Shown: positions 142 through 15,406 of the stretch, one piece after another | How the letters are laid out: the number at the start of each line of letters is the position of its first letter | Numbering within the stretch: position 1 is the stretch's first letter | NCBI GenBank assembly: GCA_016788865.1 | Contig: JAEUSB010000095.1 | Span: 1-64,000 of the forward strand | Length of the DNA stretch: 64,000 nucleotides | Origin: Leptospirales bacterium | GTDB lineage: Bacteria; Spirochaetota; Leptospiria; Leptospirales; Leptonemataceae | Reading direction: 5' to 3' | Notes under the pieces: model-generated | The model's input: the letters and a program-made list of their open reading frames with translations, nothing else | Database searches by the model: none | Told to the model about the DNA's origin: nothing | Made by a program: the position numbers and the translations under genes

Positions 142-1614
142 TCAAAACACAAAGTAAATAAAGGCACCACCATCTGGAGCCGCAAGTTGTATCAATAGTA
201 ATGCCAGGAACGGATAGATTGCAAACTCAAGCCAGAGCGGTACCTTGATCTGGAATTTTCCCTTTTCCCAGATCCAGTAGCCAAGCCATTCGCCGGCCAT
301 CATGATTCCAAAATATGTTAGAATTGGTTTGTAAAGCGATGGCGGAATCGGAGTTTTAGGTGCCTCGTAGAAATACATCAGTTTCATTTTGAATAGCGCA
401 TACGAGACAGTAGGTGAGCTAAACAAAACATGAATGGTTGTAACGCAAATCATTGCGTAGAACCAGCGCAAGCCCTCGAATGGCCAGCGAAGAAGTCGCA
501 TAACGGGTCCCTCCGGAAGTTTTGGACGTTTCTCATACCATTCCTGGAATATCGTCTCAGCAGCCAGCCAGATTCCAAAAATCAGTCCCCAGACAACAAA
601 CGTCCAGTTTGCCCCGTGCCAGAATCCACTCACCAGCATTGCAATTACCAGGTTTATCTTGTGGCGAAACCAGCTGACTCGATTCCCGCCGAGCGAGATA
701 TACAAATAGTCTCTGATCCAGCGGCCGAGTGACATATGCCATCTGCGCCAGTGTTCAGAAATCGAGCGGGCAATATGCGGCATGCGGAAGTTTTCTGGGA
801 GATGAAAGCCAAGCCAAATCGCTGAGCCCCAGGCCATATCGCTATATCCAGAAAAATCACCGTACATTTGTGTAATAAAACCAAACGCACCCAGCCAGGA
901 ACCTTCCGTTCCATACATTCCTTTATCGCCCAGCATCGCACTGACAGCGGGACCAACGTTATCTGCTATTACGGCTTTCTTAAAATAACCAAGTGCAAAC
1001 CAGCGGGCACCGTTCCGCAGTCGTTCTACCGTGAGTTCTGTGTCCGTGTAGAGCTGCGGAATAAAATCGCGTGCTGTTACAATGGGCCCTGCAACCAGTT
1101 GGGGGAAGAATGACTTGAATAAACCAAAACGTAGAAACGAGGCCTCCACGGCAGTTTTGCCGCGCCAGACGTCGATTACATAGCTCAAGGCCTGAAATGT
1201 AAAAAACGAAATACCAAGCGGCAGACCAATTGTATGCATGAACCAGTCGGGTTTGATTCCCACGAATCCAAGAACTTCAAGTAAATTGCCAAGGAAGAAG
1301 TTGTAGTACTTGTAGTAGCAGAGCAGTCCAACAAGAATACAGATCACGGCGAGCAAGAGCCAGTTGCGATAACGGTCCTTCAGGGATCCTGGGGTCAGGA
1401 AAAATGCTGAACCGTATGCTGTAATCGTGAAGAAGAAGAGCAGGAAGCTGTAGATCCAATCGTATGAAGCAAAAAAGACGTACGATGCAACAAGCAATGC
1501 CGCATGACGGGCCGGGCGCAGATACTTTTCCGGCATGAGCAAAGGAAGAACAGCCCAGTGAATAAAGAAGACTGCAACAAAGAAAAAGAAGTAGAGCGCG
1601 CTTGAGAATATCAT
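142..1614 (-). CDS. MBOAT family membrane-bound O-acyltransferase (AlgI/DltB type)
   Basis: A 490-residue polytopic membrane protein of normal length for the AlgI/DltB branch of the MBOAT family. These proteins move acyl groups across or at the inner membrane onto extracellular polysaccharides, lipids or teichoic-acid-like polymers. The family core is visible: YGDFSGYSDMAWG near 251-263, HWRRWHMSLGRWIRDYLY near 288-305 with conserved His293, and FWHGANW at 331-337 with the invariant catalytic His333. At least ten hydrophobic segments run through the chain. Its ATG overlaps the stop of the upstream CPBP gene by four bases (ATGA), so the two are probably translated together. The acceptor cannot be read from the sequence; no DltD/AlgJ-like partner is seen in the window. 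A second MBOAT gene lies at 9365-10774. Confidence 0.9.
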   Translation of the reverse strand: MIFSSALYFFFFVAVFFIHWAVLPLLMPEKYLRPARHAALLVASYVFFASYDWIYSFLLFFFTITAYGSAFFLTPGSLKDRYRNWLLLAVICILVGLLCYYKYYNFFLGNLLEVLGFVGIKPDWFMHTIGLPLGISFFTFQALSYVIDVWRGKTAVEASFLRFGLFKSFFPQLVAGPIVTARDFIPQLYTDTELTVERLRNGARWFALGYFKKAVIADNVGPAVSAMLGDKGMYGTEGSWLGAFGFITQMYGDFSGYSDMAWGSAIWLGFHLPENFRMPHIARSISEHWRRWHMSLGRWIRDYLYISLGGNRVSWFRHKINLVIAMLVSGFWHGANWTFVVWGLIFGIWLAAETIFQEWYEKRPKLPEGPVMRLLRWPFEGLRWFYAMICVTTIHVLFSSPTVSYALFKMKLMYFYEAPKTPIPPSLYKPILTYFGIMMAGEWLGYWIWEKGKFQIKVPLWLEFAIYPFLALLLIQLAAPDGGAFIYFVF

Positions 1615-2285
1615 ACTCTACGCAGTACCACCAGCGCACAGCCTCCGGCGAGGACCAGGCCTGCTATGACAATCATACCAGGCGCAAGAATCCAGCCTGC
1701 CCAGGTAAGGACAGTGAGCAGATTTGAAATCGAATGAATTGCAATCGAAGGCCCGAGGCTTCCGGTCCAGCTAGCGACGTGCGCCAGAACGAGTCCGGAC
1801 GCAAAGGCAAACAGAAATACGGCAGGGTTCAGATGCGAAACCGCGAAGAGGGCCGTTCCTGCCCAGATCGAAATGTTTGTCCGTCTCATCTCGTTTAACA
1901 GAAGCCCTCGAAAGAAGATCTCTTCTGACACCGGGCCCAGGACGACCATGCTGATAAACGCGGCAATAAGGTCTATTCCATCGCGCATGGGCCAGGGGGC
2001 CTGTGGCGAGACCTGCCCCAGGGCGAAAATCCCCGCTCCAACCGCCGGAATCACCAAAATGGAGCGGAAATCCGTCTCTGCGGCGGAAGTCCTACCAGGC
2101 GGTAATTCCAGCTGCCAGGGAACCTTTCGTCGCATCACATAATAGAAGAAACTCGTTAGGATTGTCGCCGCGAAAACGGGAATTCCCACGAACCAGAGGC
2201 CGGCTGGCAGAATCCACGAAACGAGCGCCGTCACCCCAAGGAAGGCTGCGCACCAGAGAAAGCCGCTGGACAGATCCGATTTCAT
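1611..2285 (-). CDS. CPBP family intramembrane glutamic protease (CAAX-protease/Abi type)
   Basis: A 224-residue membrane protein with the three motifs of the CPBP (CAAX prenyl protease 2/Abi) family: SEEIFFRG with Glu121-Glu122 and Arg126, FAVSH with His151, and HSISN with His184 and Asn188. These residues line the active site of Rce1-type intramembrane proteases. Bacterial members have diverse or unknown substrates. The stop codon overlaps the start of the MBOAT gene (ATGA), suggesting a two-gene operon. Its own start at 2285 lies only 18 bp from the divergent flbD start, so the two promoters must overlap or lie inside the neighbouring coding regions. Confidence 0.85.
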   Translation of the reverse strand: MKSDLSSGFLWCAAFLGVTALVSWILPAGLWFVGIPVFAATILTSFFYYVMRRKVPWQLELPPGRTSAAETDFRSILVIPAVGAGIFALGQVSPQAPWPMRDGIDLIAAFISMVVLGPVSEEIFFRGLLLNEMRRTNISIWAGTALFAVSHLNPAVFLFAFASGLVLAHVASWTGSLGPSIAIHSISNLLTVLTWAGWILAPGMIVIAGLVLAGGCALVVLRRV

Positions 2286-2303
2286 CTAGTTCTCTGAGAG
2301 CGC

Positions 2304-2504
2304 ATGATCGAAGTCCACAGATTGAACAATAGCGCCTTTTTTATCAACCACAAGCACATCGAAACAATGGAGGCCATCCCGGATACGGTCATCACGCTGG
2401 TGAACGAGAAGAAATACGTGGTCAAAGAGGCGATTCCTGAGATTATTTCCCGGATTCAGGCTTTCGAGGCTGCAATCGTCCGTTACACGCCCGGTCCTGC
2501 TTGA
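2304..2504 (+). CDS. flbD: flagellar protein FlbD
   Basis: A 66-residue protein matching the small FlbD family found in flagellar operons of spirochaetes and Gram-positives. It starts MIEVHRLNN, continues with a hydrophobic FFINHKHIETMEAIPDTVITL stretch, and has the characteristic NEKKYVVKEAIPEII segment. The molecular role is unsettled; it is normally encoded with motA, motB and fliL. Here fliL follows 80 bp downstream, but motA and motB are absent between them. The ATG has only a weak GAGAG element upstream. Its promoter must lie in the first part of the divergent CPBP gene. Confidence 0.85.
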   Translation: MIEVHRLNNSAFFINHKHIETMEAIPDTVITLVNEKKYVVKEAIPEIISRIQAFEAAIVRYTPGPA

Positions 2505-2584
2505 AAAAAATAGGCGGCATAGCGGCCCAATCGGCCGATTCTTATTTACGGGTACTCATATTTTTCCTTACCCAGGAGTAGCGC

Positions 2585-3130
2585 ATGGCCGGTGAAGAGA
2601 TACTGGATGAAGAAGAAGGCGGCGGGGAAGCCGCCCCTGCCGAAGCCGCCGGCTCGCCCTCGTCGGGCCTCAACAAAATTGTAAAGATACTGATCTACGT
2701 TGCCCTGGGGACCGTTGGTCTGGTGATCATGGCTGTGATCGCATACTATGTTGCATCCTTTGCCGCAGCGCGTCAGTACAAAGAAGTCGCGTCGATTGCT
2801 GTTGTTAAGCCACCACCACCAACAGAGAACTTCAATTTCACAGACGATTTCCGTGTGAACACGGCGGATACGGGAGATCCTCACTTCATTAAGTTGCGGT
2901 TGAGCCTTGGGTACGAGTTGGGTAATCCTGCCCTTACAGCCGAGCTGGGACAACGCAGTCCGCAGCTCCGAAATATCATCAACTTGATCCTTGCGGGAAA
3001 GACACGCGAAGATTTGCGTACTGTCCAGGATCAGCTTGAACTTCGCGAAGAGATCAAGGCTTCCATCAATCACGTTCTTTCGGATGGAAAGATCTCTGAA
3101 GTCTACTTCAACGAGTTTATTGTAAACTAA
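2585..3130 (+). CDS. fliL: flagellar basal body-associated protein FliL
   Basis: A 181-residue protein with FliL layout: an acidic, Glu/Ala-rich cytoplasmic N-terminus (1-28), one transmembrane helix around 34-60, and a periplasmic domain ending in LSDGKISEVYFNEFIVN. That tail matches the usual FliL C-terminus that packs around the stator. FliL sits at the flagellar motor, stabilises MotAB stators and affects torque; in spirochaetes this acts on periplasmic flagella. The start is supported by AGGAG at 2573-2577. The stop overlaps the start of the next gene (TAATG). It is the second gene of a flbD-fliL-GDPD unit. Confidence 0.88.
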   Translation: MAGEEILDEEEGGGEAAPAEAAGSPSSGLNKIVKILIYVALGTVGLVIMAVIAYYVASFAAARQYKEVASIAVVKPPPPTENFNFTDDFRVNTADTGDPHFIKLRLSLGYELGNPALTAELGQRSPQLRNIINLILAGKTREDLRTVQDQLELREEIKASINHVLSDGKISEVYFNEFIVN

Positions 3131-3789
3131 TGGCTGCGCCAATCCTCTATGCGCATAGAGGGAGCGCAATTCATCATCGCGAAAACACGGCGGGTGCATT
3201 TGATGCTGCACTCGCCCTGGGCTTCCAGGCATTCGAACTCGATCTTCTACGGTTAGGCGACGATACCATTGTTGTCTATCATGACTTCACGCTCAGCCGT
3301 CAGTTCAAGAAGCTCAAGCGCCTGAGTAAGATCACGCTGTCCGAGTTCAGGAAGATCAACAACAAGATTCTGACGTTTGAAGAGTTTGTCCGGCGTTATA
3401 GCAAGAAAGATATTACCGTGAACTTTGAAATCAAAGACGATGTTCGAACTCTTGGCCTTGCGCGTGCCGGAATTTCCAAGTTCAGAAAGCCCGTTGTATC
3501 GTCGTTTCGGTTGAAGGTTGTCGATGCGGCGGCAGCTCTGGGGCTGCCTGTGGGCTACCTGTTTGATACGGTTCGCGCGTTCAAGGCCAACAAGAAAAAG
3601 ATCAAGGGCCAACGTATTCACGTGTCAAAGAAGATGCTTGCAAAGCGACACAAGCCTGCTGTCCTTTTCCGTGGATATGAACTCCATGTCTATACAGTCA
3701 ATGACCCGGCTGAAGCACGTCAAATAGCCGAGTTTGATTTTGTGAAAGGTATTTTCACGGATACGCCGGAAGTTCTGCACGCATTCTGA
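3130..3789 (+). CDS. glycerophosphodiester phosphodiesterase family protein
   Basis: A 219-residue GDPD-family enzyme. The opening YAHRGS and ENT...ELDL segments supply the first catalytic His and the metal-binding Glu and Asp. YHD near residue 50 supplies the second catalytic His, and NFEIK is the later acidic metal-binding motif. The C-terminus has the usual YTVND and GIFTDTPE elements. It should hydrolyse glycerophosphodiesters to an alcohol and glycerol-3-phosphate. There is no signal peptide, so it is probably cytoplasmic like UgpQ. Its ATG overlaps the fliL stop, which makes it part of the flagellar unit by position although the function is metabolic. It converges on the YdcF-like gene with a gap of only six bases. 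Confidence 0.88.
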   Translation: MAAPILYAHRGSAIHHRENTAGAFDAALALGFQAFELDLLRLGDDTIVVYHDFTLSRQFKKLKRLSKITLSEFRKINNKILTFEEFVRRYSKKDITVNFEIKDDVRTLGLARAGISKFRKPVVSSFRLKVVDAAAALGLPVGYLFDTVRAFKANKKKIKGQRIHVSKKMLAKRHKPAVLFRGYELHVYTVNDPAEARQIAEFDFVKGIFTDTPEVLHAF

Positions 3790-3795
3790 AATATC

Positions 3796-4560
3796 CTACA
3801 AATAGCCCCGCAGACGATACGCAATCACTCCCGCATACTCTTTCAAAGCCATCGAGGTAACGGTCATTCCCGCAGAATGCGGAAAAATTGCCTCTATGCC
3901 TGGAAATTCGGTTGGGATGTAGTAATCAACGGGGAAGGGAACCACCTCAAGGCCGGCCTTTTCAAAGCATAAAGCGCTGCGCCACATGTGAAAAGCGGAT
4001 GTTACAAGAATCACTTTCTTTATTCCCCGCTGTTTTGCAATCGCTGCTGTTTCCGTTGCGTTCTCCGCAGTATTTCGCGAATTGCTTTCTGCAACAATCT
4101 GCGTTTCCGGAATTCCCTGCTGCACAAGCCAGGTCTTGAGAACGCTGGCTTCTGGTTCACCCAGTTGTGAGAGCAGGCCCGATCCTCCCGTGACAATGAT
4201 TAGCGGTGCCTTCTTGTTCTTTAGTAGATCGATCCCGGCAAGAATGCGGTCCACCGCGCTTGAGAATTCAGGCCTGTCCTTTTGAGGGGAAAGTGGAGTG
4301 ACCATGCCGGTTAAAACTACAACAGCATCTGTCTGAGGTGCTTCTGCTATAGACAATGGCGCATAACGTGATTCAAGTGAACGCATCAGGGGCGCGGCTA
4401 CTACATAGCTGGATCCCAGGACGACAGTAATCCACAGGATGAAACAGAATTTCTTGAATCGACCGGGTTTTAGTTTCAGCCCTGCAATAAGGGCGCAGAT
4501 CAGAAACAGCGGGTAGGGAAACAGGAGCCCGGGAAGGATTTTGGAGAAGAAAAAGAACAT
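3796..4560 (-). CDS. YdcF/ElyC/SanA family (DUF218) membrane-anchored protein
   Basis: A 254-residue protein with two N-terminal membrane helices (about 5-30 and 38-60) followed by a DUF218 domain. Family signatures visible are DAVVVLTG, the PLIIVTGGSG strand-loop, a WLVQQGIPETQIVAESNSRNTAENA segment and VTSAFHMWRS. E. coli ElyC and SanA, of this family, affect envelope and peptidoglycan precursor integrity; the biochemical activity is not firmly known. The start at 4560 lies six bases after the end of the orphan gene fragment at 4567-4740, suggesting that it was once the downstream member of an operon whose upstream gene has been lost. Confidence 0.8.
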   Translation of the reverse strand: MFFFFSKILPGLLFPYPLFLICALIAGLKLKPGRFKKFCFILWITVVLGSSYVVAAPLMRSLESRYAPLSIAEAPQTDAVVVLTGMVTPLSPQKDRPEFSSAVDRILAGIDLLKNKKAPLIIVTGGSGLLSQLGEPEASVLKTWLVQQGIPETQIVAESNSRNTAENATETAAIAKQRGIKKVILVTSAFHMWRSALCFEKAGLEVVPFPVDYYIPTEFPGIEAIFPHSAGMTVTSMALKEYAGVIAYRLRGYL

Positions 4561-4566
4561 TATGGA

Positions 4567-4740
4567 TTAGAAATTCAATTGCTTCTGTGTGTCCAGCGAG
4601 ACGGAGATAGCCTCAGATCCGCACACCACTGAGTTGATGCCAGGAGGCAGATGAAGTGGATCGTTATCTTTGCTATCTCCCACATGTTTCGTCTGGTTGA
4701 TCGTATCGGATCTGCCCGCGGAGACATAGCTCCGCCAGGG
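4567..4740 (-). pseudogene. orphan 3' fragment of a protein gene (about 57 codons)
   Basis: On the minus strand a frame is open from 4740 to a TAA at 4567-4569 with protein-like content (SDTINQTKHVGDSKDND, then SEAISVSLDTQKQLNF). It has no start codon of its own: an in-frame TGA at 4741-4743 closes it upstream, where the cassette-like region begins. It ends six bases before the YdcF-like start, as an operon partner would. I read it as the surviving C-terminus of a gene cut off by insertion or recombination. I do not recognise the family, and a chance open frame cannot be excluded. Confidence 0.35.
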
Positions 4741-4765
4741 TCAGTCCCACACTTACGTGGTGTGA

Positions 4766-5644
4766 CTAAGCAAACCGAAAACGCATAGTTGCGGATGCTA
4801 CCACCTCGAGTTCTCCGGCCTCGATACTTGGAACAGCAGATCCACTATCGGTGGCGCGCAATGCCGCCTCACGCATCAGAAGTTGCTCTGGCGAGCCGAA
4901 TCGGTGCTGCCGGGGTGTACCGACGGCGACCGTTGGACGCAAAGAGATCAATTTGCCAAGTTGTTGCCCGGCGCTTTGAGCTGCAGCTCTGGCGGTTTCT
5001 GTTGCTAACTCCACCGCCTTAGCGATCGCTGCGTTTTTTGCGTCCGTAACATTGGACAGTCGAAAGCTGAGTTCGAGTTCCGCTTTGTCCTCAGTGGCGA
5101 ACAATGCTGCATAGAATGTTTCCAGGGAATTGGCCGTGAGCGAAAATTTCACAGTGAACTCATGGGAGCCATTGAATCCTTTATTAAACATCTTGCGATC
5201 ATAATCATAGTCAGGCGCGATACGAAATTCCGAGGAGGCAACGAAAAGATCCGGTAAGCCGAGTGTCCGGATTTTGTCCGTTAGAGTGCGCGTTCGGGTA
5301 TCAAGTTCAGTTTGGCACGTGCGATAGTCCTTTTCTCGGGTGCTGAGAGTAATGGAGGCCCAAACTGTGTCCGGTCGCATTGTAACTCTGGCTATTTCTG
5401 TGACTGTGATCATGTCTTCTCCATCTGTCTCAACGATTTGCGTAATATCCGAGCGGGGGACAGAATGTGCGGACAGCGAAGCGAACTCGCTTTCCCGCAT
5501 TTCCCTTCGCCATTGCTGGCGTGCTGCAAGCTCTTCCTCCTGCAGTCTGCGACGCCTGGCCCTCTGCCGGCGAATCGCCCGATAGCCAATAAGCGCCGAG
5601 AAGGACAGCACAAGGATGGTGAGGATTGAAAATAGAACAGTCAT
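4766..5644 (-). CDS. SIMPL domain (DUF541) protein with N-terminal membrane anchor
   Basis: A 292-residue protein. Residues 1-21 form a membrane helix, followed by an Arg-rich stretch (RRQRARRRR) and then a DUF541/SIMPL domain from about 75 to the end. Domain signs are the V-T-E-I-A-R-V-T-M-R-P-D-T opening, alternating strands, LSFRLSNVTDAKNAAIAKAVELA, and a C-terminal VVASATMRFRF strand. SIMPL proteins are periplasmic or surface-associated and some are linked to stress protection; activity is not established. It begins just downstream of repeat site 5672-5701, so it may be the last unit of the cassette-like array. No matching site is seen after its 3' end. Confidence 0.75.
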   Translation of the reverse strand: MTVLFSILTILVLSFSALIGYRAIRRQRARRRRLQEEELAARQQWRREMRESEFASLSAHSVPRSDITQIVETDGEDMITVTEIARVTMRPDTVWASITLSTREKDYRTCQTELDTRTRTLTDKIRTLGLPDLFVASSEFRIAPDYDYDRKMFNKGFNGSHEFTVKFSLTANSLETFYAALFATEDKAELELSFRLSNVTDAKNAAIAKAVELATETARAAAQSAGQQLGKLISLRPTVAVGTPRQHRFGSPEQLLMREAALRATDSGSAVPSIEAGELEVVASATMRFRFA

Positions 5645-5671
5645 TCATGCAATCCGTTTTTCGACCGATTG

Positions 5672-5701
5672 CGCATAACGGATGCTAGCGCGAGTTCTGC
5701 G
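5672..5701. repeat. cassette-boundary inverted repeat, site 1
   Basis: The arms are CGCATAAC (5672-5679) and GTTCTGCG (5694-5701), one mismatch from an inverted repeat, around a core containing GCTAGC. The minus-strand gene 5685-6398 terminates inside it (its last codons read Q-N-S-R-stop). The core matches site 5 at 7532-7559. Confidence 0.7.
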
Positions 5702-6398
5702 TAGTGCTTGCAGCCTTTTTTGGGACCGATAACAGAAGGCGGTCGATAGCTTTTCCATTATCAAAAGTATTGATGACAAACCCGTTTCCACTCCAGAGAG
5801 GTTTGCCGGATTCGGAATCCACGAGAACGCCTCTGACAAGGAGTTGTTTGATGTAAACGGTGCGCCCGCCCACCATGGCCGCTGGTAGCGCCGCCAAAAA
5901 TTGGAGGCTGATGCAGCCCGGGGAATAATCTTTGTAAAGCGCAATGAGAACCATAACCGTTCTGGCTGAGCGGTCCCTTCCAAGACTGGCTGTCGCCGGA
6001 TAAGACTGGGACATATAGTAGAGATGGTCGCGCTCCTCTGATTTTTGCGCTAGCGTTCCGAGCTCTTGAAAAGAGGCCTTTGTCGCGCTATCGCTGGTAT
6101 TATTGGGAAATGGAATTGTCCCATTCTCGGACAATGCCTGAGACGGAACACCGCGCTGTGTGAGTTGGCTGGCAAGAATGTTTGGCAGATTGTCTGCGCG
6201 AAGCGCGGCTTGTTCGGCCGGAGTCAGTAGGCGTTCGGATGAACCATTCAGCTCCGTACGACCTGCATGAGCCAGCACAATCACGATTGAATCAGATACA
6301 TCGCCCGGGAAATGCGAAGACGTAGATGCAATCGGCTGAGCTATGCAATTCAGGGCTAATGTGGTTGGGAGGAAGAGGAGGTATAAGGTAGTCTTCAT
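5685..6398 (-). CDS. exported protein of unknown function (cassette-like unit)
   Basis: A 237-residue protein starting MKTTLYLLFLPTTLALNCIA, a clear signal peptide, so it is probably periplasmic or outer-membrane associated. I prefer this ATG at 6398 over the in-frame ATG at 6461 because it begins the signal peptide. The mature part has no family I recognise; it includes an SIVIVLAHAGRTEL strand, a DHLYYMSQSYPATASLGRD segment and a SGKPLWSGNGFV element near the C-terminus. Its start overlaps the stop of the small frame at 6395-6598 (ATGA). Its stop lies inside the boundary repeat at 5672-5701. Confidence 0.65.
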   Translation of the reverse strand: MKTTLYLLFLPTTLALNCIAQPIASTSSHFPGDVSDSIVIVLAHAGRTELNGSSERLLTPAEQAALRADNLPNILASQLTQRGVPSQALSENGTIPFPNNTSDSATKASFQELGTLAQKSEERDHLYYMSQSYPATASLGRDRSARTVMVLIALYKDYSPGCISLQFLAALPAAMVGGRTVYIKQLLVRGVLVDSESGKPLWSGNGFVINTFDNGKAIDRLLLSVPKKAASTTQNSR

Positions 6399-6598
6399 AG
6401 GTTCGCGTAGTTCTTGGCGGATTGGGCCCTGGCGGCAAGCCTTTCGCAAAGCGTGCGGCACTTGTTGTTATGCGACGGCAAGCCGCTGCTCACATTGGGT
6501 CGTTTGAGACGCCAATGCTCCGTGTTGTGTCTTACTTCTAGCTGGTGGGACTGAAAAAGGTTGCGAGCCTCTTTGGCATATAGAAATCCGAGCGCCAC
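6395..6598 (-). CDS. small basic hypothetical protein in the array (uncertain)
   Basis: A 67-codon frame that begins just after site 3 and stops in an ATGA overlap with the start of the exported-protein gene. It is His-, Arg- and Asn-rich, with no membrane segment or known motif. It is crossed by the degenerate boundary copy at 6460-6474, which encodes its S-H-N-N-K segment, the same residues that end the gene at 7102-7536. It may therefore be a decayed cassette, a read-through frame over an old site, or a short leader coupled to the next gene. Coding is not certain. Confidence 0.3.
   Translation of the reverse strand: MALGFLYAKEARNLFQSHQLEVRHNTEHWRLKRPNVSSGLPSHNNKCRTLCERLAARAQSAKNYANL
6399..6474. 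repeat. degenerate cassette-boundary site, site 2
   Basis: The plus strand carries ACTTGTTGTTATGCG at 6460-6474, identical in its GTTATGCG arm to the other sites and preceded by the same ACTTGTT as sites 4 and 6. No close CGCATAAC partner is present. Towards 6399-6413 there is a weak copy (minus strand GAACTACGCGAACC) resembling the flank of site 4. Between them are small stem-forming stretches such as CTTTCGCAAAG. I read it as a decayed or rearranged site. Confidence 0.45.
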
Positions 6599-6603
6599 TA
6601 TGT

Positions 6604-6632
6604 CGCTTAACGTGTTTAACGAGAGTTATGCG
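6604..6632. repeat. cassette-boundary inverted repeat, site 3
   Basis: The arms are CGCTTAAC (6604-6611) and GTTATGCG (6625-6632) around GTGTTTAACGAGA. The outer arms pair with one mismatch. The gene at 6626-6997 ends inside it: its TAA is part of the CGCATAAC arm read on the minus strand. Confidence 0.7.
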
Positions 6633-6997
6633 AAGTGCGGCCCGGTGCTTTCATGCAGCATCCGTGCAACATAGTCGGCAGCTAGTTCCGGATTCTCTTT
6701 CAAGTTTGTGACGAGTTGCTGCTCGTCATCCGTTGAGAAGTCAAGCAGGATCTCGGCAAGCGGGGGTGCAGTGGCAACGCGATCTTGAACTGTTTCAAGC
6801 GCGCAAGTTATGACAGTAGCTTTGATCAGATCTGGAGTTAGAAAAGAGAATATTTCGGAAAATGTATCCGCACCCAGCATTGAAAATAGAAGACAAACCC
6901 TGTCGAGACGTGTCGGCTCCTTTGCGTTAATTCGCTGCACGTTCTCCCACATCGCGTCCTGTTCGTCTTGTTCTTCGGGAGAGAGTCTGTTTTCCAT
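6626..6997 (-). CDS. small acidic cytoplasmic protein of unknown function (cassette-like unit)
   Basis: A 123-residue acidic protein without signal peptide or membrane helix, predicted mainly helical. It begins MENRLSPEEQDEQDAMWENV and ends ESTGPHFA; the last residues are encoded by the boundary repeat, where the stop codon lies. No family is recognised. About 90 bp of untranslated sequence separate its ATG from site 4. That is unlike its two upstream neighbours, whose start codons are inside the repeat. Confidence 0.55.
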   Translation of the reverse strand: MENRLSPEEQDEQDAMWENVQRINAKEPTRLDRVCLLFSMLGADTFSEIFSFLTPDLIKATVITCALETVQDRVATAPPLAEILLDFSTDDEQQLVTNLKENPELAADYVARMLHESTGPHFA

Positions 6998-7088
6998 AGT
7001 TCGAGGATCGAAACCTTCGTTAAGAATTCTACAGATGAGCCTGAGAATCTAGGCCCGCAATGTTTGAGTGTTTTCCGGGCCGGAATTG

Positions 7089-7118
7089 CGGCTAACGTGT
7101 GTTACTTGTTGTTATGCG
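7089..7118. repeat. cassette-boundary inverted repeat, site 4
   Basis: The arms are CGGCTAAC (7089-7096) and GTTATGCG (7111-7118) around GTGTGTTACTTGTT. The inner part matches sites 2 and 6 (ACTTGTT before GTTAT). The gene at 7102-7536 ends in it; its last codons, H-N-N-K-stop, are encoded by the repeat. Confidence 0.72.
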
Positions 7119-7536
7119 TAGTTCGCGCGCAGAAATCAGGCCAGAAAGGCCTTTGATGCGAGGTTCTGAGAACTTCGTGACGAGAGTCGAAATGCTCTAG
7201 TGCGCCATCCATCAGCGTCAATTTGATATGGAGATCTACGCAGCTGTAGTACCAGTCCTGTATGGCTCCCTGGCAAAAGAACTCGTCGGGATTTCCGTTG
7301 CGTGGGTTCCCGCGCAAAAATGTGCAGGCGAATCTTTCTTGCGGTCTATTTGAAGCTGGGATGTAAAACTGCAACTCTGCGGATGCCTGAACGGCATGTG
7401 GCATGGGTGCCAGCGCCATTTCTATGTGGCCACTTTTGAAGAGGAAATCACGAATGATCAAATTGTTGGGTTTTTGACAGGCTCCGGCCAGGAAGAACAA
7501 GCTGGCGAATCCTATAATAGTGCGGGAATTACGCAT
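7102..7536 (-). CDS. putative lipoprotein of unknown function (cassette-like unit)
   Basis: A 144-residue protein starting MRNSRTIIGFASLFFLAGAC, a signal peptide with a lipobox (LAGAC) and Lys at +3, so it is probably a lipoprotein. The rest is short, with aromatic and His-rich stretches (QDWYYSCVDLHIKL) and no recognised family. Its ATG is the ATG inside the GTTATGCG arm of site 5 and its TAA lies in site 4, so the repeats contribute both ends of the coding sequence. No Shine-Dalgarno sequence independent of the repeat is visible. Confidence 0.62.
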   Translation of the reverse strand: MRNSRTIIGFASLFFLAGACQKPNNLIIRDFLFKSGHIEMALAPMPHAVQASAELQFYIPASNRPQERFACTFLRGNPRNGNPDEFFCQGAIQDWYYSCVDLHIKLTLMDGALEHFDSRHEVLRTSHQRPFWPDFCARTTHNNK

Positions 7537-7559
7537 AACGTGCTAGCGAGAGTTATGCG
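7532..7559. repeat. cassette-boundary inverted repeat, site 5 (perfect arms)
   Basis: This copy has perfect 8-bp arms, CGCATAAC (7532-7539) and GTTATGCG (7552-7559), around the core GTGCTAGCGAGA. It contains the stop of the gene at 7543-8229 and the start of the gene at 7102-7536, both on the minus strand. The core is shared with site 1 and partly with site 3. Confidence 0.78.
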
Positions 7560-8229
7560 AAGTGCCCCCAAGGGACGAAAGTACGGTCTTTCGCAGCTGC
7601 TCGCAGCCGAGTTGAAATTGTACCCACATCACAAAAGCGGCAAGAGCGAAAATTACGAATGCACCAAACCCCGTGAAATAGACCGTTACGGCACACATCC
7701 CCCAGCAAAGTAAGAGCCCCATAGGGGATTGAGATATCGTTACGTTGAGCTTCGAGTCTTTGCTCCATCGAATATCAAAAGTGCTCGGACGCGCGTACAT
7801 TGCCTTGCCACCGACGGTTATAGAAACATGGTTCTCGTTTGTGGTTTCGTTAACTGCCCACCGTTCGGATTGATTCAAAAGTTGAATCAGCTTTGCCTTG
7901 GAGATGCTGTAATCACCGTGAATAAAGAAATAGTCATGGTGGAGCAGATTTTGAGCGAAGAAGGCCCACTTGGGCGCCGTGATGCGGAGATTCTCTGGGG
8001 TAGGGACAGAATCGTTAGTTGAGGAGTTGGCTTCGGGGACATCCGCAAAATTTGTCATGCTGCTAAAACTTTGCCCAATCAGAGCGATGCCGAGGAGGAT
8101 CAGAACGCTGAAGAAATAGCTCTGAGAAAGGAGTGCAAGTCCGATTACTATGAGGAGTATCCCCATAATGATCGCACCACCAATCTCCTTGGGTCCATCG
8201 ACCGGTGTTTTCTTGGGGGCATTACGCAT
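7543..8229 (-). CDS. membrane protein of unknown function (cassette-like unit)
   Basis: A 228-residue protein with two hydrophobic hairpins: about 16-56 (GAIIMGILLIVIGLALLSQSYFF onward) and about 170-205. A soluble, probably beta-rich middle domain lies between them. The overall plan resembles small DUF-type membrane proteins common in mobile gene cassettes, but I recognise no family. The ATG lies in the GTTATGCG arm of site 6 and the last codons (H-N-S-R-stop) in site 5. The same terminal residues N-S-R end the gene at 5685-6398, simply because both use the same repeat as their 3' end. Confidence 0.62.
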   Translation of the reverse strand: MRNAPKKTPVDGPKEIGGAIIMGILLIVIGLALLSQSYFFSVLILLGIALIGQSFSSMTNFADVPEANSSTNDSVPTPENLRITAPKWAFFAQNLLHHDYFFIHGDYSISKAKLIQLLNQSERWAVNETTNENHVSITVGGKAMYARPSTFDIRWSKDSKLNVTISQSPMGLLLCWGMCAVTVYFTGFGAFVIFALAAFVMWVQFQLGCEQLRKTVLSSLGGTSHNSR

Positions 8230-8253
8230 AACGGGTTACTTGTTGTTATCTGC
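8225..8253. repeat. cassette-boundary inverted repeat, site 6
   Basis: The arm CGCATAAC (8225-8232) faces GTTATCTGC (8245-8253), a near match to GTTATGC with one insertion, around GGGTTACTTGTT. It forms the upstream edge of the array. It supplies the start codon of the gene at 7543-8229 and lies 18 bp from the terminator of the preceding gene. Confidence 0.65.
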
Positions 8254-8271
8254 AGTTACGGCTAGAAAGAA

Positions 8272-8296
8272 GCTCCCGGACAGGAGGTCCGGGAGC
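8272..8296 (-). terminator. strong hairpin terminator of the SH3-domain protein gene
   Basis: A perfect 10-bp stem (GCTCCCGGAC / GTCCGGGAGC) with a 5-base loop follows the stop of the minus-strand gene ending at 8317. On the minus strand it continues into TTCTTTCT. It ends transcription just before the cassette-like array. Confidence 0.75.
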
Positions 8297-8316
8297 CAAG
8301 AACAGAGGTCGATCCT

Positions 8317-9111
8317 TCATTTGTGCAACGGGGAAATTCTATTGCAATAGAATCCTTCTTGAACTATTTGATCTCCCCAAACGACGCACTCTTTCCCGTC
8401 GCGATCTTTCGATAATGATGAGCGGCGGACAAATTGGCAGAGATCTTGGCGGATTATGAAGGCTGGGTTTTGAAGGAACTCAGAGTGGTGGGGTGATAGA
8501 AACCCCTGAGTTGCATGGTTCCAGGTTAGAGCAATCTTGCGCGACGGAAGTGCAACACTACGGTTCGCGTTTGGTTCACTAAATAGCGGATTACCGCTGA
8601 TGTTTCGTTTGCCTCCTTGCAATTCCAATACGAGACCGGAAGAAGATATGGAAAGAGTGCCTGTTTCTGTGCTTTCTTCGGAACCGCCCAACGAAAACTG
8701 ATGTTGCTGAAATAGAACGCGATTGCCAGTGATCTGGAGAATTGATTCTACTAAGATGTATCCGTCGCCTCCACCACAGGGCAGGGGCTGATTTGAAGAC
8801 GTGAATTTTACGGTCGGCATCGGCTTAGGTTTAGTGTCACTGAGGAATGCACCGAACACGTAGCCATTGATTGACGGAATCCTGTACCAAGGAGATGTTT
8901 GCCCCTGATAATTCCCCAAATGTGTAGTTTTTTCCACGTTAAGCGGCGTTCCGGGAGGCAATGGATTTATTGTGCGGGCTTGCAGATTGGGCTCCGCCCT
9001 GACAAAAAGTGCCGAGGCGGTAGAGTACTTTAATGTTTCTGCACTGGACGCAGTTGTCGCAAGTAGAGCAGCCGATAGAAGGAGGTAAATTCTCAACATG
9101 TTCATGGTCAT
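8317..9111 (-). CDS. exported SH3-like domain protein
   Basis: A protein of about 264 residues with a signal peptide (MLRIYLLLSAALLATTASSA) and a bacterial SH3-like domain at roughly 25-95. Its hallmarks are SALFVRAEPNLQARTINPLPPGTPLNV and WYRIPSINGYVFGAFL. SH3b domains usually bind cell-wall or protein ligands in the envelope. The remaining two thirds have no recognised family. Three closely spaced ATGs (9111, 9105, 9099) could start it. I chose 9111 because AGG lies about eight bases upstream and because the longer in-frame extension to 9162 runs through a GC-rich hairpin. It forms its own transcription unit with a strong terminator. Confidence 0.68.
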   Translation of the reverse strand: MTMNMLRIYLLLSAALLATTASSAETLKYSTASALFVRAEPNLQARTINPLPPGTPLNVEKTTHLGNYQGQTSPWYRIPSINGYVFGAFLSDTKPKPMPTVKFTSSNQPLPCGGGDGYILVESILQITGNRVLFQQHQFSLGGSEESTETGTLSISSSGLVLELQGGKRNISGNPLFSEPNANRSVALPSRKIALTWNHATQGFLSPHHSEFLQNPAFIIRQDLCQFVRRSSLSKDRDGKECVVWGDQIVQEGFYCNRISPLHK

Positions 9112-9120
9112 GACCAGCCT

Positions 9121-9140
9121 GCCGGCCATGGAGGGCCGGC
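9121..9140. other. GC-rich stem-loop just upstream of the SH3-protein start
   Basis: A perfect 7-bp stem (GCCGGCC / GGCCGGC) with a 6-base loop sits about 10 bp before the preferred start codon. In a transcript it would lie immediately upstream of the ribosome binding site, so it could limit translation. No regulator is implied by the sequence. Confidence 0.45.
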
Positions 9141-9364
9141 TTCGAGCCAGGAGATCCTTCATCGCGATGGCGCCTAACTATCTCTATCCGAGCCCAAGCT
9201 CAAATGCGGCCGCAACGACCGACTAAAGGCACGGCTTCGCCAGGTGAGTCCCAGGGCGATTTCGTGCCATCCACCCGGACGTTGTCAATCCTTGTCCTTG
9301 TGAAGCTTCATTTTATTTATATCGCCGAAACCAGTGGGCCATGGGGTGCGGCGGGGGGTGAACT

Positions 9365-10774
9365 CTAGAAATTAAAGTAAATAAAAGTTCCGGTTACATC
9401 GCCGTACAAATTCACAAGCAGACCAATCAGGAATGTTGAAACCGGCACAAGTGCCAGTTTGAGATTTGGTTTTTGTTCAAGCCACTCCTTAAACCCGCCA
9501 TAATATTGCGGAATGTTGAGTAAATAACCAAGGATTGCCAGGCCAATCATGGAACCAAGGTCTGCTATGGGCAAGCCTCGTTGATTTGAGATCACTCCCT
9601 TCACAATATCCATCGAATGATGGATGGTTGGAGCAGCAAAAAGCAGGCAACCGCCGCAAAAAATTATGTAGGTGTAGAGTACGCGAAGTCCGTTAAACCG
9701 ATTCTCCGGCAACAGACGATAGCCCGAATGCTCCCAGAGTCGCTCAAGCGACAAGATGATTCCGGTGTAGATACCCCAGAGCACCGTATTATAATTCGCC
9801 CCGTGCCAGAGACCACCGATTGCAAATGTAAGGATCAGATTCATGTAGGTGCGCCAGGGTCCAACGCGTGAACCACCCAGCGGAATATAGAGATAATCTC
9901 TCAGCCAGTGCGAAAGCGTAATGTGCCAGCGTTGCCAGAGTTCAGAATAGCTGCGCGCCAGGAAAGGGCCCTTGAAGTTTTCTGGAATTTCATAGCCCAG
10001 AAGTTTTGCGAGCCCCCGCGCCATATCCGTATAGCCGGAGAAATCGCAATAGATCTGAAATGCCCATACAAACGGAATCAGAAACAGTACAGTCGCATCG
10101 TATAATTGCGGATTCTGCCAGGCCGGATTCGTGATTGATCCAAGTCGATCTGCGATCAGTACCTTCTTTACAACACCCTGAAGAATGATCAAACATCCGT
10201 TTACCATGCGATCACGCGTCAATGACGGATGGTCAATCTGCGGAATGAGATCCGGCGCGCGCATGATTGGACCGGCAACAAAATGCGGGAAGAAAAGCGT
10301 GAACACGTAGAACTTCATTGGAGAAACTTTCTCCGTGATCTTGCCGGTGTAGCAGTCTACAATGAACGCGATTACCTGGAAAGTGTAGAAACTGATTCCG
10401 ATTGGTAAAATGATTTCGAACTTGAGATCGTGGATCCAGTTGGTGCGAAGTTCCACGAGATATGGAATGCCAAAAATGTGTCCGATTGACTCCGCAAACA
10501 AATAGAAGTATTTAAACACACCCAGGATTGATGCGTCGATAACGATGCCCGCGATGAGCAGTCCCTTGTTCTTGCTCTCAATTAGCCTCATCCCGATCCA
10601 GTAGTTTACGATCAGAAGGGCTACAAACATCAGCAGGAACGGGATGCTATACCAGGCATAGAACACGAGGCTGGTCAGGATGATGAGATACTGCTTACCG
10701 CGAACCGGCAATTGCCAGTATATCATGTAAACAACCAGGAAGAGTAAAATGAAGATGCCGGAATTAAACAGCAT
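9365..10774 (-). CDS. second MBOAT family membrane-bound O-acyltransferase
   Basis: A 469-residue polytopic protein of the AlgI/DltB MBOAT branch. It shows IYCDFSGYTDMARG near 241-254, LWQRWHITLSHWLRDYLYIPLGG from about 279 with His284, and GLWHGANY at 321-328 with catalytic His324. Its C-terminus (GTFIYFNF) parallels that of the first MBOAT protein (GAFIYFVF), yet the two are clearly diverged and so are paralogues rather than a recent duplication. It stands alone, divergent from the oligoendopeptidase gene, with a 25-bp inverted repeat between them. The acyl acceptor is unknown. Confidence 0.9.
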   Translation of the reverse strand: MLFNSGIFILLFLVVYMIYWQLPVRGKQYLIILTSLVFYAWYSIPFLLMFVALLIVNYWIGMRLIESKNKGLLIAGIVIDASILGVFKYFYLFAESIGHIFGIPYLVELRTNWIHDLKFEIILPIGISFYTFQVIAFIVDCYTGKITEKVSPMKFYVFTLFFPHFVAGPIMRAPDLIPQIDHPSLTRDRMVNGCLIILQGVVKKVLIADRLGSITNPAWQNPQLYDATVLFLIPFVWAFQIYCDFSGYTDMARGLAKLLGYEIPENFKGPFLARSYSELWQRWHITLSHWLRDYLYIPLGGSRVGPWRTYMNLILTFAIGGLWHGANYNTVLWGIYTGIILSLERLWEHSGYRLLPENRFNGLRVLYTYIIFCGGCLLFAAPTIHHSMDIVKGVISNQRGLPIADLGSMIGLAILGYLLNIPQYYGGFKEWLEQKPNLKLALVPVSTFLIGLLVNLYGDVTGTFIYFNF

Positions 10775-10814
10775 AGGAGCTCGGGATGAATACAGTGTTC
10801 ATAAAGTCTTTCGT

Positions 10815-10839
10815 GTTGCAAAGTGAATATTTTTGCAAC
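10815..10839. promoter_or_regulatory. inverted repeat in the divergent MBOAT/pepF intergenic region
   Basis: GTTGCAAA (10815-10822) and TTTGCAAC (10832-10839) form perfect 8-bp arms around an AT-rich 9-bp centre, the shape of an operator for a dimeric regulator. It lies 41 bp from the MBOAT start and about 70 bp from the pepF start. It could also simply be a small hairpin. Confidence 0.35.
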
Positions 10840-10909
10840 GCCGGGCCATTGATTTCAGGCGGTCTGGCCTCCATTCCTTCCAATTATTGATCGACATTGG
10901 CATCAAAAT

Positions 10910-12682
10910 TTGCAAGTCTGCCGCGTGTCGCAAGTTACGCTTCCCGCGTGGAACCTGAAAATCATCTATCCATCGACTGATCGGCGTGAGTCGGACAAGA
11001 GTGAACTCGTCTACCTCGCTGATGCATTCGTCGCAAAGTATCGCGGTAAGTTGAATGGTCTATCGGATTCGGATCTGGCTGAAGCATTTTCAGCCCACGC
11101 AATCATCTCAAACAAAATCGCTCGACTGTCTGTTCACGCCTACCTGACGTTCGCAGGTGACACTGCCAATTCTGAAGCCCAGGCGCTCGTTGCGGCCACG
11201 GAAGAGTTAAGCGCCGGCATCTGGGGTAAGCTCGTTTTCTTTGAACTCGAGTTGGGTCGTTTGTCAAAACGGACATTTACTGGCCCACTGGCGCAGTATT
11301 CGTATTTTATCAATAAGTGCATCGAAAGAGACGAGCACAATCTCACAGAGGACCTTGAATCGTACGGAATAGAGAAGAACCTCACCGGAATCCAGGCATT
11401 GACCGGGTTGTTTGATGAAGTCATGGGCAGTCTGGCCTTTGACTCAGTCGATCCAGAAGGAAAGCCGGTTCGTCTCACGCAGGAAACGGCACTTGCGTAC
11501 ATGCACCACAGCGACCGAGCCGCGCGCACCCGGATCTATTCACAATTCCTGGAAACAGTAGGCTCGCAAAAAACGGTCCTGGCCAATATCTACAATAGCA
11601 TTGTGCTCGACCACAAACTTGATACAAAGCGCCGAAAATACAAGGGCCCCATGGAGCCGCGCAATCTCAACAATCAAGTGAGCTCAGCGGCCGTGGATGC
11701 CATGCTGAGCGCTGTTGAATCCCGCTACAGCATTGTTCGCAATTACTATTCCTGGAAAGCACGTTATGCGGCAATCAGCGACTTTACCAATGCTGATATC
11801 TATGCACCCGTACTGCCCCGGGCTCGCCAGTTTTCCTTCCCCGAGGCTCGGGACGCTGTACTGAACGCCTACGGAAATTTCGATTCTGAATCTGGCAAGA
11901 TTGTTGATGCATTCTTTGCGGGCGAGCGCCTGGATGCAGCCCTTCGCGCCGGGAAACGCCCCGGCGCATTTTGCTACGGTGCCTCACCGGAGCTGGATGC
12001 TTTTGTTCATCTAAATTTTACGGGCGATTTGCGTTCGGTTCAGACATTGGCGCATGAATTGGGCCACGGTCTACATCATCAGCTTGCAAAATCACAAAAT
12101 CACGTGAACTTTGGAACTCCCCTGGTATCAGCAGAGACCGCTTCCGTTTTCGGTGAGATATTACTCAACGAGCTTCTGTTCAAGGATTCGGCGGCGCGGG
12201 AAGACAAGCTTGCCCTGGTCTGCGCACAGATGGAATCCGTTCTTGCCACGGTCTTCCGGCAAACAGTACTAACTCGTTTTGAACAGGCTGCGCATGCAGA
12301 GCGTGAGAAAGGACGCGTGTCCGCAGACAAACTCTGCGACCTCTGGCTGCAAGAAAATGGAAAGTTATACGGCAATGCAGTTCGTATGGTGGACGCGTAT
12401 AAATGGGGCTGGGCCTATATTCCGCATTTTGTCCATACTCCTTTCTATTGCTACGCCTACTCGTTTGGTCAGCTGATGGTGCTCGCACTCTATGAAGAAT
12501 ACATGAAGCGCGGGGACGATTTTAAACGTGATTACCTTCGTTTGCTGTCGCTTGGAGGTTCACTTCCTCCCGCGCAATTGATCCGTGAAACGGTTGGCCT
12601 TGATATCGAACGTGAAGACTTCTGGCTGCAGGCGCTTGCATTCATTGATCGAATGATGCAGCGGATCGAAAGCCTGGCTTGA
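10910..12682 (+). CDS. M3 family oligoendopeptidase (PepF type)
   Basis: A 590-residue zinc metallopeptidase of the M3B oligoendopeptidase F family, of normal length. The zinc motif HELGH (AHELGHGLHHQ) is at about His382-Glu383-His386, followed some 25 residues on by the metal-ligand helix ETASVFGE. The C-terminal YAYSFGQLMVLALY segment is typical of the family. It should cleave peptides of several to about twenty residues in the cytoplasm; no signal peptide is seen. The start is uncertain: the frame opens with TTG at 10910, and GTG at 10925 (MSQVTLPAWNL) is an equally good choice. No strong ribosome binding site decides. Confidence 0.9.
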   Translation: MQVCRVSQVTLPAWNLKIIYPSTDRRESDKSELVYLADAFVAKYRGKLNGLSDSDLAEAFSAHAIISNKIARLSVHAYLTFAGDTANSEAQALVAATEELSAGIWGKLVFFELELGRLSKRTFTGPLAQYSYFINKCIERDEHNLTEDLESYGIEKNLTGIQALTGLFDEVMGSLAFDSVDPEGKPVRLTQETALAYMHHSDRAARTRIYSQFLETVGSQKTVLANIYNSIVLDHKLDTKRRKYKGPMEPRNLNNQVSSAAVDAMLSAVESRYSIVRNYYSWKARYAAISDFTNADIYAPVLPRARQFSFPEARDAVLNAYGNFDSESGKIVDAFFAGERLDAALRAGKRPGAFCYGASPELDAFVHLNFTGDLRSVQTLAHELGHGLHHQLAKSQNHVNFGTPLVSAETASVFGEILLNELLFKDSAAREDKLALVCAQMESVLATVFRQTVLTRFEQAAHAEREKGRVSADKLCDLWLQENGKLYGNAVRMVDAYKWGWAYIPHFVHTPFYCYAYSFGQLMVLALYEEYMKRGDDFKRDYLRLLSLGGSLPPAQLIRETVGLDIEREDFWLQALAFIDRMMQRIESLA

Positions 12683-12748
12683 TTGTAAGATCACACCTCA
12701 AGGGGATTGATTCTGCGCTCATTTGTTGTGCTTGATAAAGTCTTTCGC

Positions 12749-13441
12749 TTAGTTCCAGATAAGGATGCCAATCGAAGCAACCAGGCTTCCGGTCATACAA
12801 ATGCCCGTAACGGCCGACCAGGCATTGTGAGTTTCCATTTTCTGCTCCGATTGATCGGCAAGAATGCTGCAATCGTACATTATCTTGCATTCTGACGTTA
12901 TATGCAACGCGGCGCCAGCTAAAGAGAGCAGAGCCGTTTCCCACAATCGAGATTGAAAAATGTGAACGATAGGTAGGGAGAATACCCAGGCAAAAATCAC
13001 GAGGAGAGCCAGAATAGAACCAATCAGGGGAGCCATCCAGCCTTCGATCTTCATTGACAGTATGCCGTGCAGACGCGGAACAAGAATTAACACCAAGAGG
13101 AAACCGAATCCGAGGATATGAGCCATGAGTGGAGCGAACACGATTGCAAAGGCTCCTTGAAAGATATTCGCAGCTGAGAATCCATTTGTTGCAAGGTTCA
13201 AGATGGGCAACAGCGTGGCGACAATTGCGCCGCGCAGCGTGGCAGGGAAAGCATAGCCGTGCATTCCGAAATACAGTAGGGCCCACAGTGCCGCGCCAAT
13301 GCAGGCGAGAACTAGTAGGATAGAAGGTGCTTTGATTCCTTGTTGAGCAGTGTAGTAACTTGCAGCGGGCAGACTTCCTGCAATCATGAGAAAGTGTATG
13401 GTTCGCAGACAGGCGTAGGCGATTCGACTGAGAGCACTCAT
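12749..13441 (-). CDS. polytopic membrane protein of unknown function
   Basis: A 230-residue protein with about six hydrophobic segments spread over the chain. A Cys-containing loop (SECKIMYDCSIL) near 185-197 precedes the last segment. No family is recognised. A longer minus-strand frame covers the same bases (12642-13487), but it is rich in Arg, Ser and Cys and lacks protein-like structure, so this frame is preferred. It lies 54 bp downstream of the 189-residue membrane protein gene at 13496-14065 and may be co-transcribed with it. Confidence 0.6.
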   Translation of the reverse strand: MSALSRIAYACLRTIHFLMIAGSLPAASYYTAQQGIKAPSILLVLACIGAALWALLYFGMHGYAFPATLRGAIVATLLPILNLATNGFSAANIFQGAFAIVFAPLMAHILGFGFLLVLILVPRLHGILSMKIEGWMAPLIGSILALLVIFAWVFSLPIVHIFQSRLWETALLSLAGAALHITSECKIMYDCSILADQSEQKMETHNAWSAVTGICMTGSLVASIGILIWN

Positions 13442-14407: not shown

Positions 14408-15406
14408 ATGGACGTACTTTTTCCGCTGCAGGAGTATTGGTGGTTTTACGCAGTCTTCATGATATTCGTATTTGCCATGCTGGCCCTGGATCTGGGCGTA
14501 TTTCACCGCCAGGCCCATGCGGTGAGCATCAAAGAAGCTACCGTCTGGAGTATTGTCTGGATAACACTGGCGCTGGGTTTTAATGTATTTTTTTACTTCT
14601 ACGCTCGTTGGGAATTCATGTCGCAGGGCATGCCTGGCGCCGAGGATGAAGCTCGCCGTGTCGCCCTTGAGTTCTTGAGCGGATACTTGATCGAGAAATC
14701 GCTCTCGATCGATAACATCTTTGTATTTGTGCTGGTGTTTACTTACTTTTCCATCCCCCTCGCATATCAGCATCGAATCCTCTTCTATGGTATTCTTGGC
14801 GCACTTGTCTTCCGCGCAATCTTCATAGCTCTGGGTTCCGTACTGATGCAATATCACTGGGTACTGTATGTCTTCGGTGGGTTTTTGATCTTCACTGGAT
14901 TGAAAATGGCAATCGTCAAAGACAAACCGGTTGATCTTTCGCAAAACATCTTGATTCGTCTGATCAATCGGATTATGCCCACCACGCATAGCCTCGATCA
15001 TGCTCACTTCTTTACACGGGTGAACGGAGTGTTGCATGCTACTCCGCTTTTCGTGGCGCTGGTGTTTATTGAGTTCTCAGACATAATCTTTGCCGTGGAT
15101 TCGGTGCCGGCAATCTATGCGCTTACGCAGGAACCCCTGATTGTGTTCATTTCGAATGTGTTTGCGATTCTTGGCCTGCGATCACTCTTCTTTATGCTTG
15201 CCGGAATGGTGGATCGATTTCACCTGTTGAAGTACGGACTGGCACTGGTTCTTATCTTTGTGGGATTGAAGATGGTTTACCTGAACAATGCGTTTGGTGG
15301 CAAGTTTCCAATTACATGGTCCCTGGCGATCATTGGAACCCTCATAGGCAGTTTCACCATCCTGTCGTTGCTGGTTCCACAAAAGAAAGAAGCCCCGAAA
15401 GAATGA
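14408..15406 (+). CDS. TerC family integral membrane protein (Alx-like)
   Basis: A 332-residue TerC-family protein, about nine membrane segments. Family motifs are MLALDLGVFHR near the N-terminus, EKSLSIDNIFVFVLVF (acidic Asp of the SxDN motif), and a second acidic repeat, FIEFSDIIFAVDSVPAI. TerC/Alx proteins are linked to tellurite resistance and, for Alx/MntP-type members, to manganese export; metal export is a family-level inference here. I start at ATG 14408 because it follows an excellent ribosome binding site (AAAGGAGGG); the frame also extends upstream to a TTG at 14342. The serine hydrolase gene starts one base after its stop. Confidence 0.88.
   Translation: MDVLFPLQEYWWFYAVFMIFVFAMLALDLGVFHRQAHAVSIKEATVWSIVWITLALGFNVFFYFYARWEFMSQGMPGAEDEARRVALEFLSGYLIEKSLSIDNIFVFVLVFTYFSIPLAYQHRILFYGILGALVFRAIFIALGSVLMQYHWVLYVFGGFLIFTGLKMAIVKDKPVDLSQNILIRLINRIMPTTHSLDHAHFFTRVNGVLHATPLFVALVFIEFSDIIFAVDSVPAIYALTQEPLIVFISNVFAILGLRSLFFMLAGMVDRFHLLKYGLALVLIFVGLKMVYLNNAFGGKFPITWSLAIIGTLIGSFTILSLLVPQKKEAPKE

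Follow-up and report, generated by a model that had tools for sequence, protein, structure and literature searches.

The window, the whole 64-kb stretch of contig C5 that was analysed here, carries an array of short repeats which are, with a probability of about 85%, attC-type sites of an integron-like cassette system from which the central part has been deleted. The array is an old, collapsed, integrase-free cluster of an integron-like system that is widespread in the class. Pairs of the arms CGCATAAC (R'' box) and GTTATGCG (R' box) with no more than two mismatches in both arms were found six times in the 64 kb, compared with 0.07 times (maximum 1) in Markov shuffles and 0.13 times (maximum 1) for scrambled inverted arms, and both arms were perfect only at the site at 7532. 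These are the six sites that an earlier reading of the DNA without database searches (the sequence-only reading) had reported, the decayed copy lying at 6445–6474. Its description of an integron-like cassette array with attC-type AAC/GTT boxes and no adjacent integrase was borne out; a recombinase gene sits on another contig.

The further copies expected elsewhere in the genome were present. The exact arm pattern was matched 39 times, on C5, C18, C22, C36, C45, C48, and C66, and the reversed control pattern was not matched at all. With decay allowed, there were at least 66 short sites of 24–37 bp, most commonly of 28 or 30 bp, and at least 18 long sites of 91–390 bp, which together lie on eight contigs, C24 included. 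Apart from the single intermediate of 91 bp, the lengths (190–390 bp or 24–37 bp) fall outside the 57–142 nt of known attC sites, which have a variable middle (PMC2727003). C48 carries both forms in one orientation: long sites (196–390 bp) from 510 to 13113, and then short sites reaching near the contig end (31365). The longest open reading frame (ORF) was in the sense direction in 67 of the 75 inter-site intervals and antisense in 8, and 64 of the 67 sense intervals held ORFs of at least 90 amino acids, indicating a same-strand array of one-gene units. These 64 ORFs typically start 20–35 nt past R' and stop 15–25 nt ahead of R''. One cassette of 220 bp has no convincing gene and appears to be non-coding; it occurs at C24:19294–19518 and at C48:1361–1586, 4331–4555, and 19632–19857, and also in the congener G001 (C112:277–513).

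Two generalizations drawn earlier from the window did not extend to the genome, and the earlier interpretation of the window array is partly supported. Within the repeats, stop codons had been placed correctly at 5685, 6626, 7102, and 7543, as had the start ATGs of two genes at 7536 and 8229. The supply of start and stop codons was rejected as the purpose of the sites, since it holds for some window genes whereas genome-wide only 7 of the 64 ORFs begin at the ATG of R' and 16 terminate within the next site. The alternation of two core types, which had been taken for recombining half-sites, is not general either: 35 of the 66 short sites are of the AACA type, often in runs.

The long sites are laid out as R'' (CGCATAAC), 4 nt, L'' (~8 nt), a middle part, L', 5–7 nt, and R' (GTTATGCG). 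L' is complementary to L'', and the order of boxes is that of attC (R''-L''-L'-R'). The middle is similar from site to site where the L boxes differ, and a similar middle occurs in two further genera of the family. An alignment of 22 long sites showed that compensatory changes keep 26 of 36 predicted pairs, including those of the hairpin GCGCGGATGCGCGC...GCGCGCACCGCGC, and the strand of one long site gave a better fold than any of 200 shuffles (z=-5.1). A scan of the long sites against Rfam gave no family at gathering scores.

The 220-bp cassette ends in sites of 204–205 bp on C24 and C48 but in a 24-bp site at C48:19857. Since one cassette family bears both long and 24-bp sites, the short sites are long sites that have lost their interior. 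A primary short-site system was rejected on the same observation; the genome holds the parent sites of 91–390 bp. In 35 of the 66 short sites, the first 7–11 nt past R'' matched a long-site family, with a peak of the match length at 10, which corresponds to the 4-nt spacer plus 6 nt of L''. The 3–7 nt ahead of R' in those sites usually fitted the 3' spacer of a long site, and the two matches overlapped by 1–3 nt at the junction in 20 of the 35. L' is lost and L'' is partial, and most short sites retain only the R stem in place of the four boxes, and intermediate forms of 91 and 37 bp exist. We infer that the shortening was a deletion of hairpin-forming DNA at microhomologies. The R boxes of short sites carry unmatched mutations, which were not seen in long sites, and no short site was seen beside the recombinase; the short sites are therefore read as the older ones.

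The R' that opens an integron cassette and the R'' that closes it derive from the same circle. In the present genome, R' variants at one boundary matched R'' at the next (GTTATACG/CGTATAAC, GTTATCTG/CAGATAAC, GTTAGACG/CGTCTAAC). Nine such matches were counted, compared with a permutation mean of 0.5 (maximum 6 in 20000), whereas variants never matched within one site. Boundary matches were likewise enriched in two other genomes of the class, G006 (48/62, permutation mean 9.8) and G032 (86/124, permutation mean 18.6). Since the boxes match across the cassette, exchange is placed, as it is in integrons, at a point after R'' and before the core of R', and the cassettes appear to be mobile units cut at the R' core. 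That the system works like an integron is well supported by comparison of the sequences. R' variants matched the cassette end in six of six cases in the long-site region; in the short-site region three did and most others mismatched, in keeping with a greater age of the short sites.

The C48 cassette at 14720–15305 is copied at 22993–23576 (~97% alike) between unrelated flanks, and its exact edges are R' boxes. The two copies have in common a rare 25/26-bp form of the site, AACAAGT(A)AC|GTT, and the shortening therefore probably preceded the copying. This single case suggests mobility after shortening, and raises the possibility, which we consider rather unlikely, that the sites of 24–32 bp are working minimal recombination sites consisting of R boxes only, between which cassettes still move. 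The R boxes are largely kept (48 of 1056 letters deviate), and the single strands of short sites fold to an 8-bp R stem. On the other hand, the R boxes are mutated in short sites where those of long sites are not, most short sites lack an L box, and in class 1 integrons truncation leaves attC sites mostly inactive (PMC4670013). Furthermore, there is only one clear duplication, and an identical short deletion could have arisen twice.

For the preferred reading, in which the short sites are remnants of long attC-type sites, a platform for cassette insertion was found on C24. The gene at 17238–18281 encodes a tyrosine recombinase of 347 amino acids, and an attI-like R' box (GTTATCTG at 18342) lies on the same strand ~60 bp past the gene. 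The box is followed by a cassette, a 382-bp site, the 220-bp non-coding cassette, a 205-bp site, and the contig end. The recombinase and the flanking 16 kb are syntenic in G001, in which the first cassette is a relative of the second cassette of C24, the similarity starting exactly at ACGTTATACG. Since the edge falls at the exact base, the difference is the gain or loss of one whole cassette at attI. When the congener loci were searched at the protein level, no relatives of the coding cassettes turned up, and the only match was to the small cassette without a gene.

The C24 protein has the catalytic residues of a tyrosine recombinase (R198, K223, H288, R291, H314, and Y323), which are invariant in 26 homologues. 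Among solved structures, its fold comes nearest to that of VchIntIA in complex with attC (2A3V), followed by XerA, and the protein clusters with canonical IntI, away from XerC/XerD. A region of 62 residues in VchIntIA corresponds to 20 residues in the C24 recombinase, and the distance from box I to HxxR is 56–63 amino acids in homologues of the phylum versus 98–99 in three canonical IntI; recombinases of this kind are called insertion-less below. An extra N-terminal domain of ~70 residues is predicted, which is HARP-like in one relative (E=1e-4, below the cut-off). We infer that the C24 recombinase may be the enzyme that moves the cassettes, although its association with the sites is not proof. 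The sequence-only reading had suggested a genome-wide search for an IntI-type or other tyrosine recombinase: the latter was found, and a canonical IntI over the cut-off was not. Three small tyrosine recombinases of ~200–235 amino acids consisting of the catalytic domain only, which were considered as possible drivers of the system, are also encoded (C22:15872–16390, C36:29532–30065, C101:18426–18902). The C22 array has its first R' box (CGCATAAC) at 15550, and the recombinase on C22 lies ~0.3 kb past it; no array adjoins those on C36 and C101.

Canonical IntI over the cut-off was found in none of 48 genomes of the class, whereas the same search detected it in one genome of another class as a positive control. 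The model of the long site matched 20 genomes of the class and 0 of 13 others. Matches occurred in 19 of the 27 class genomes with an insertion-less recombinase versus 1 of the 21 without it (p=4e-6; p=3e-5 when the genomes used for building the model were left out). Two near-complete genomes carry large arrays beside an insertion-less recombinase, with 134 attC-like sites over 210 kb in G032 (C1:3457625–3668003) and 68 over 120 kb in G006 (C1:2326334–2447925); the sites are 190–240 bp. Short forms were seen in the host genus, and none in the loci examined in G006 or G007, which hold long sites only. Attempts to find an earlier description in the literature, with subscription papers mostly outside the search, yielded no paper pairing Turneriella with an integron. 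In other phyla, attC-like arrays (sites of 116–210 bp) were observed near insertion-less recombinases in L103 (Peregrinibacteria) and L100 (Pirellulaceae).

The distribution also bears on the opposite order of events, in which short sites came first and long ones were produced when a structured element inserted into the loop. A middle that is similar whichever L boxes a site has, also from genus to genus, would be compatible with such an insertion. This order is nevertheless very improbable, because the loci examined in G006 and G007 have long sites and no short ones, the long-site model matches across the class, L' pairs in every family with the matching L'', a partner that would not come with an insertion, and short sites retain part of L'' but no L'; the intermediates of 91 and 37 bp likewise speak against it. 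Xer/dif modules consist of two 11-bp arms around a centre of 6–8 bp. Such modules (pdif), moved by the XerC and XerD that the host encodes, would account for the total of 28 bp and for inverted arms resembling the XerC arm, but the inner ends of the core boxes are mostly 12–14 bp apart, longer homologous sites with L boxes exist, and the array starts with a recombinase other than XerC/D, so that this explanation has slightly less in its favour still. Palindromic intergenic repeats unrelated to cassette recombination (REP/MITE or terminator-like) are the least credible origin: the sites are short, palindromic, and mostly intergenic, but the boundary matches across cassettes and not within sites already contradict it, as do the cassette-bounded duplication and gain or loss, the same-strand order, and the platform with a recombinase, while descent from long sites makes a REP/RAYT reading unlikely.

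Taken as remnants of attC-type sites, the repeats can be placed in the following scheme. The C24 recombinase or its close relatives would bind the folded single-stranded site, with exchange at the R box, and circular cassettes would be inserted at attI, as by IntI. The place of the IntI-specific domain may perhaps be taken by the additional domain at the N terminus, together with the folded middle that long sites conserve. In the host genus, the hairpin-forming middle would be lost after insertion, with 1–3 nt of microhomology at most junctions, by deletions that begin within L'', end within the 3' spacer, and leave scars of 24–32 bp with intact R boxes. The window array would have been gained by the host lineage or lost from G001, where it is missing, in agreement with the gain or loss of genes between relatives that had been anticipated. 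Several points weigh against this reading. The C24 recombinase lacks the IntI-specific insertion of ~41 residues and scores 200 bits, under the curated cut-off for integron integrases (TIGR02249, 265 bits). In published work, the IntI-specific domain is called defining and necessary for IntI activity (PMC9668308, citing Messier and Roy 2001). The draft genome is 94% complete and therefore another integrase could be missing, and the join of C24 to C48 is not seen in the draft assembly. A match of at least 7 nt to a long-site family was seen here in only 35 of the 66 short sites, whose size range is narrower than random deletion would suggest, and the support for recombination comes from comparing sequences. 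A more far-reaching proposal, that of a class-wide integron-type system in which a recombinase without the IntI-specific domain reads large structured sites and the shrunken 28-bp sites of one genus, with R boxes only, are still recombinable, seems doubtful to us.

The sites and genes of the window are listed in Table 1.

Table 1. Sites, cassette genes, and flanking features of the array in the 64-kb window
Feature	Position	Strand	Remarks
SH3_3 domain protein gene (PF08239)	8317..9162	-	upstream of first site; probably first cassette
Short site	8225..8252	-	CAGATAAC-AACAAGTAACCC-GTTATGCG; R''=CAGATAAC variant
Cassette gene, 228 aa, no family	7543..8229	-	start is ATG of R'; stop in next site
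Short site, perfect arms	7532..7559	-	CGCATAAC-TCTCGCTAGCAC-GTTATGCG
Cassette gene, 144 aa, lipoprotein-like, no family	7102..7536	-	
Short site	7089..7118	-	CGCATAAC-AACAAGTAACACAC-GTTAGCCG
Cassette gene, 123 aa, no family	6626..6997	-	
Short site	6604..6632	-	CGCATAAC-TCTCGTTAAACAC-GTTAAGCG
Decayed short site	6445..6474	-	CGCATAAC-AACAAGTGCCGCAC-GCTTTGCG
Cassette gene, up to 258 aa, no family	5685..6461	-	
Short attC-type site	5672..5701	-	minus strand CGCAGAAC-TCGCGCTAGCATCC-GTTATGCG
SIMPL domain gene (PF04402)	4766..5644	-	after last site; probably last cassette
Stretch missing in congener G001	4582..9364	.	the two flanking genes ~90 bp apart there

A Leptospira-specific NCBIfam domain in two window proteins supports a leptospiral affinity of the host of the array, and the earlier suggestion of a spirochaete held in this respect. 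The ElyC-like and MBOAT genes are separated by the insert at 4582–9364 in the window, by an unrelated insert in G002 (C71:4474–7090), and by almost nothing in a third species, and the gap is possibly an insertion hotspot. Cassettes ending in the R'' variant CAGATAAC have a common terminator-like hairpin (GGCTCCCGGAC...GTCCGGGAGC) directly before the site, at 8276–8304 in the window and at C24:18870–18938, C48:11707–11762, and C36:4355–4442.

IntegronFinder relies on the IntI-specific domain to recognize an integrase and on models built from conventional sites to recognize attC (PMC9668308, PMC9024848). Systems such as the present one, in which arrays reach 134 cassettes over 210 kb, can therefore escape notice. 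Confirmation of the insertion-less recombinase would mean that the domain regarded as defining IntI is not essential for cassette capture, which bears on the evolution of integrons. The genus with collapsed sites would be a natural record of the death of attC and of arrays freezing into operon-like clusters.

The system resembles integrons and chromosomal superintegrons in the recombinase beside an attI-like site, the one-gene cassettes on the same strand, the R''/L''/L'/R' boxes, the exchange between core boxes, and the cassette genes, which are mostly of no known family. It differs from them in the lack of the IntI-specific insertion, in sites of 190–390 bp whose middle is conserved across genera, and in the mass collapse to sites of 24–32 bp. 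Under a definition of integrons by the IntI-specific domain, the system falls outside the family. The chromosomal integrons of Treponema likewise have a spirochaete host and an integrase in the orientation of the cassettes; their attC sites are 63–132 bp, accompany IntI, and are said to have shortened during speciation, and Treponema was named as the only spirochaete clade with integrons (PMC3607928). Partial loss of attC joins cassettes in the fused cassettes of class 1 integrons as well, but these are rare and sporadic (PMC4670013), whereas here dozens of sites collapsed to near-equal size with the R boxes kept. The recombinase shares the fold and the catalytic residues with VchIntIA and XerA and falls in the clade of IntI apart from XerC/XerD; unlike VchIntIA, it is without ~41 residues of the IntI-specific domain and has an extra N-terminal domain of ~70 residues.

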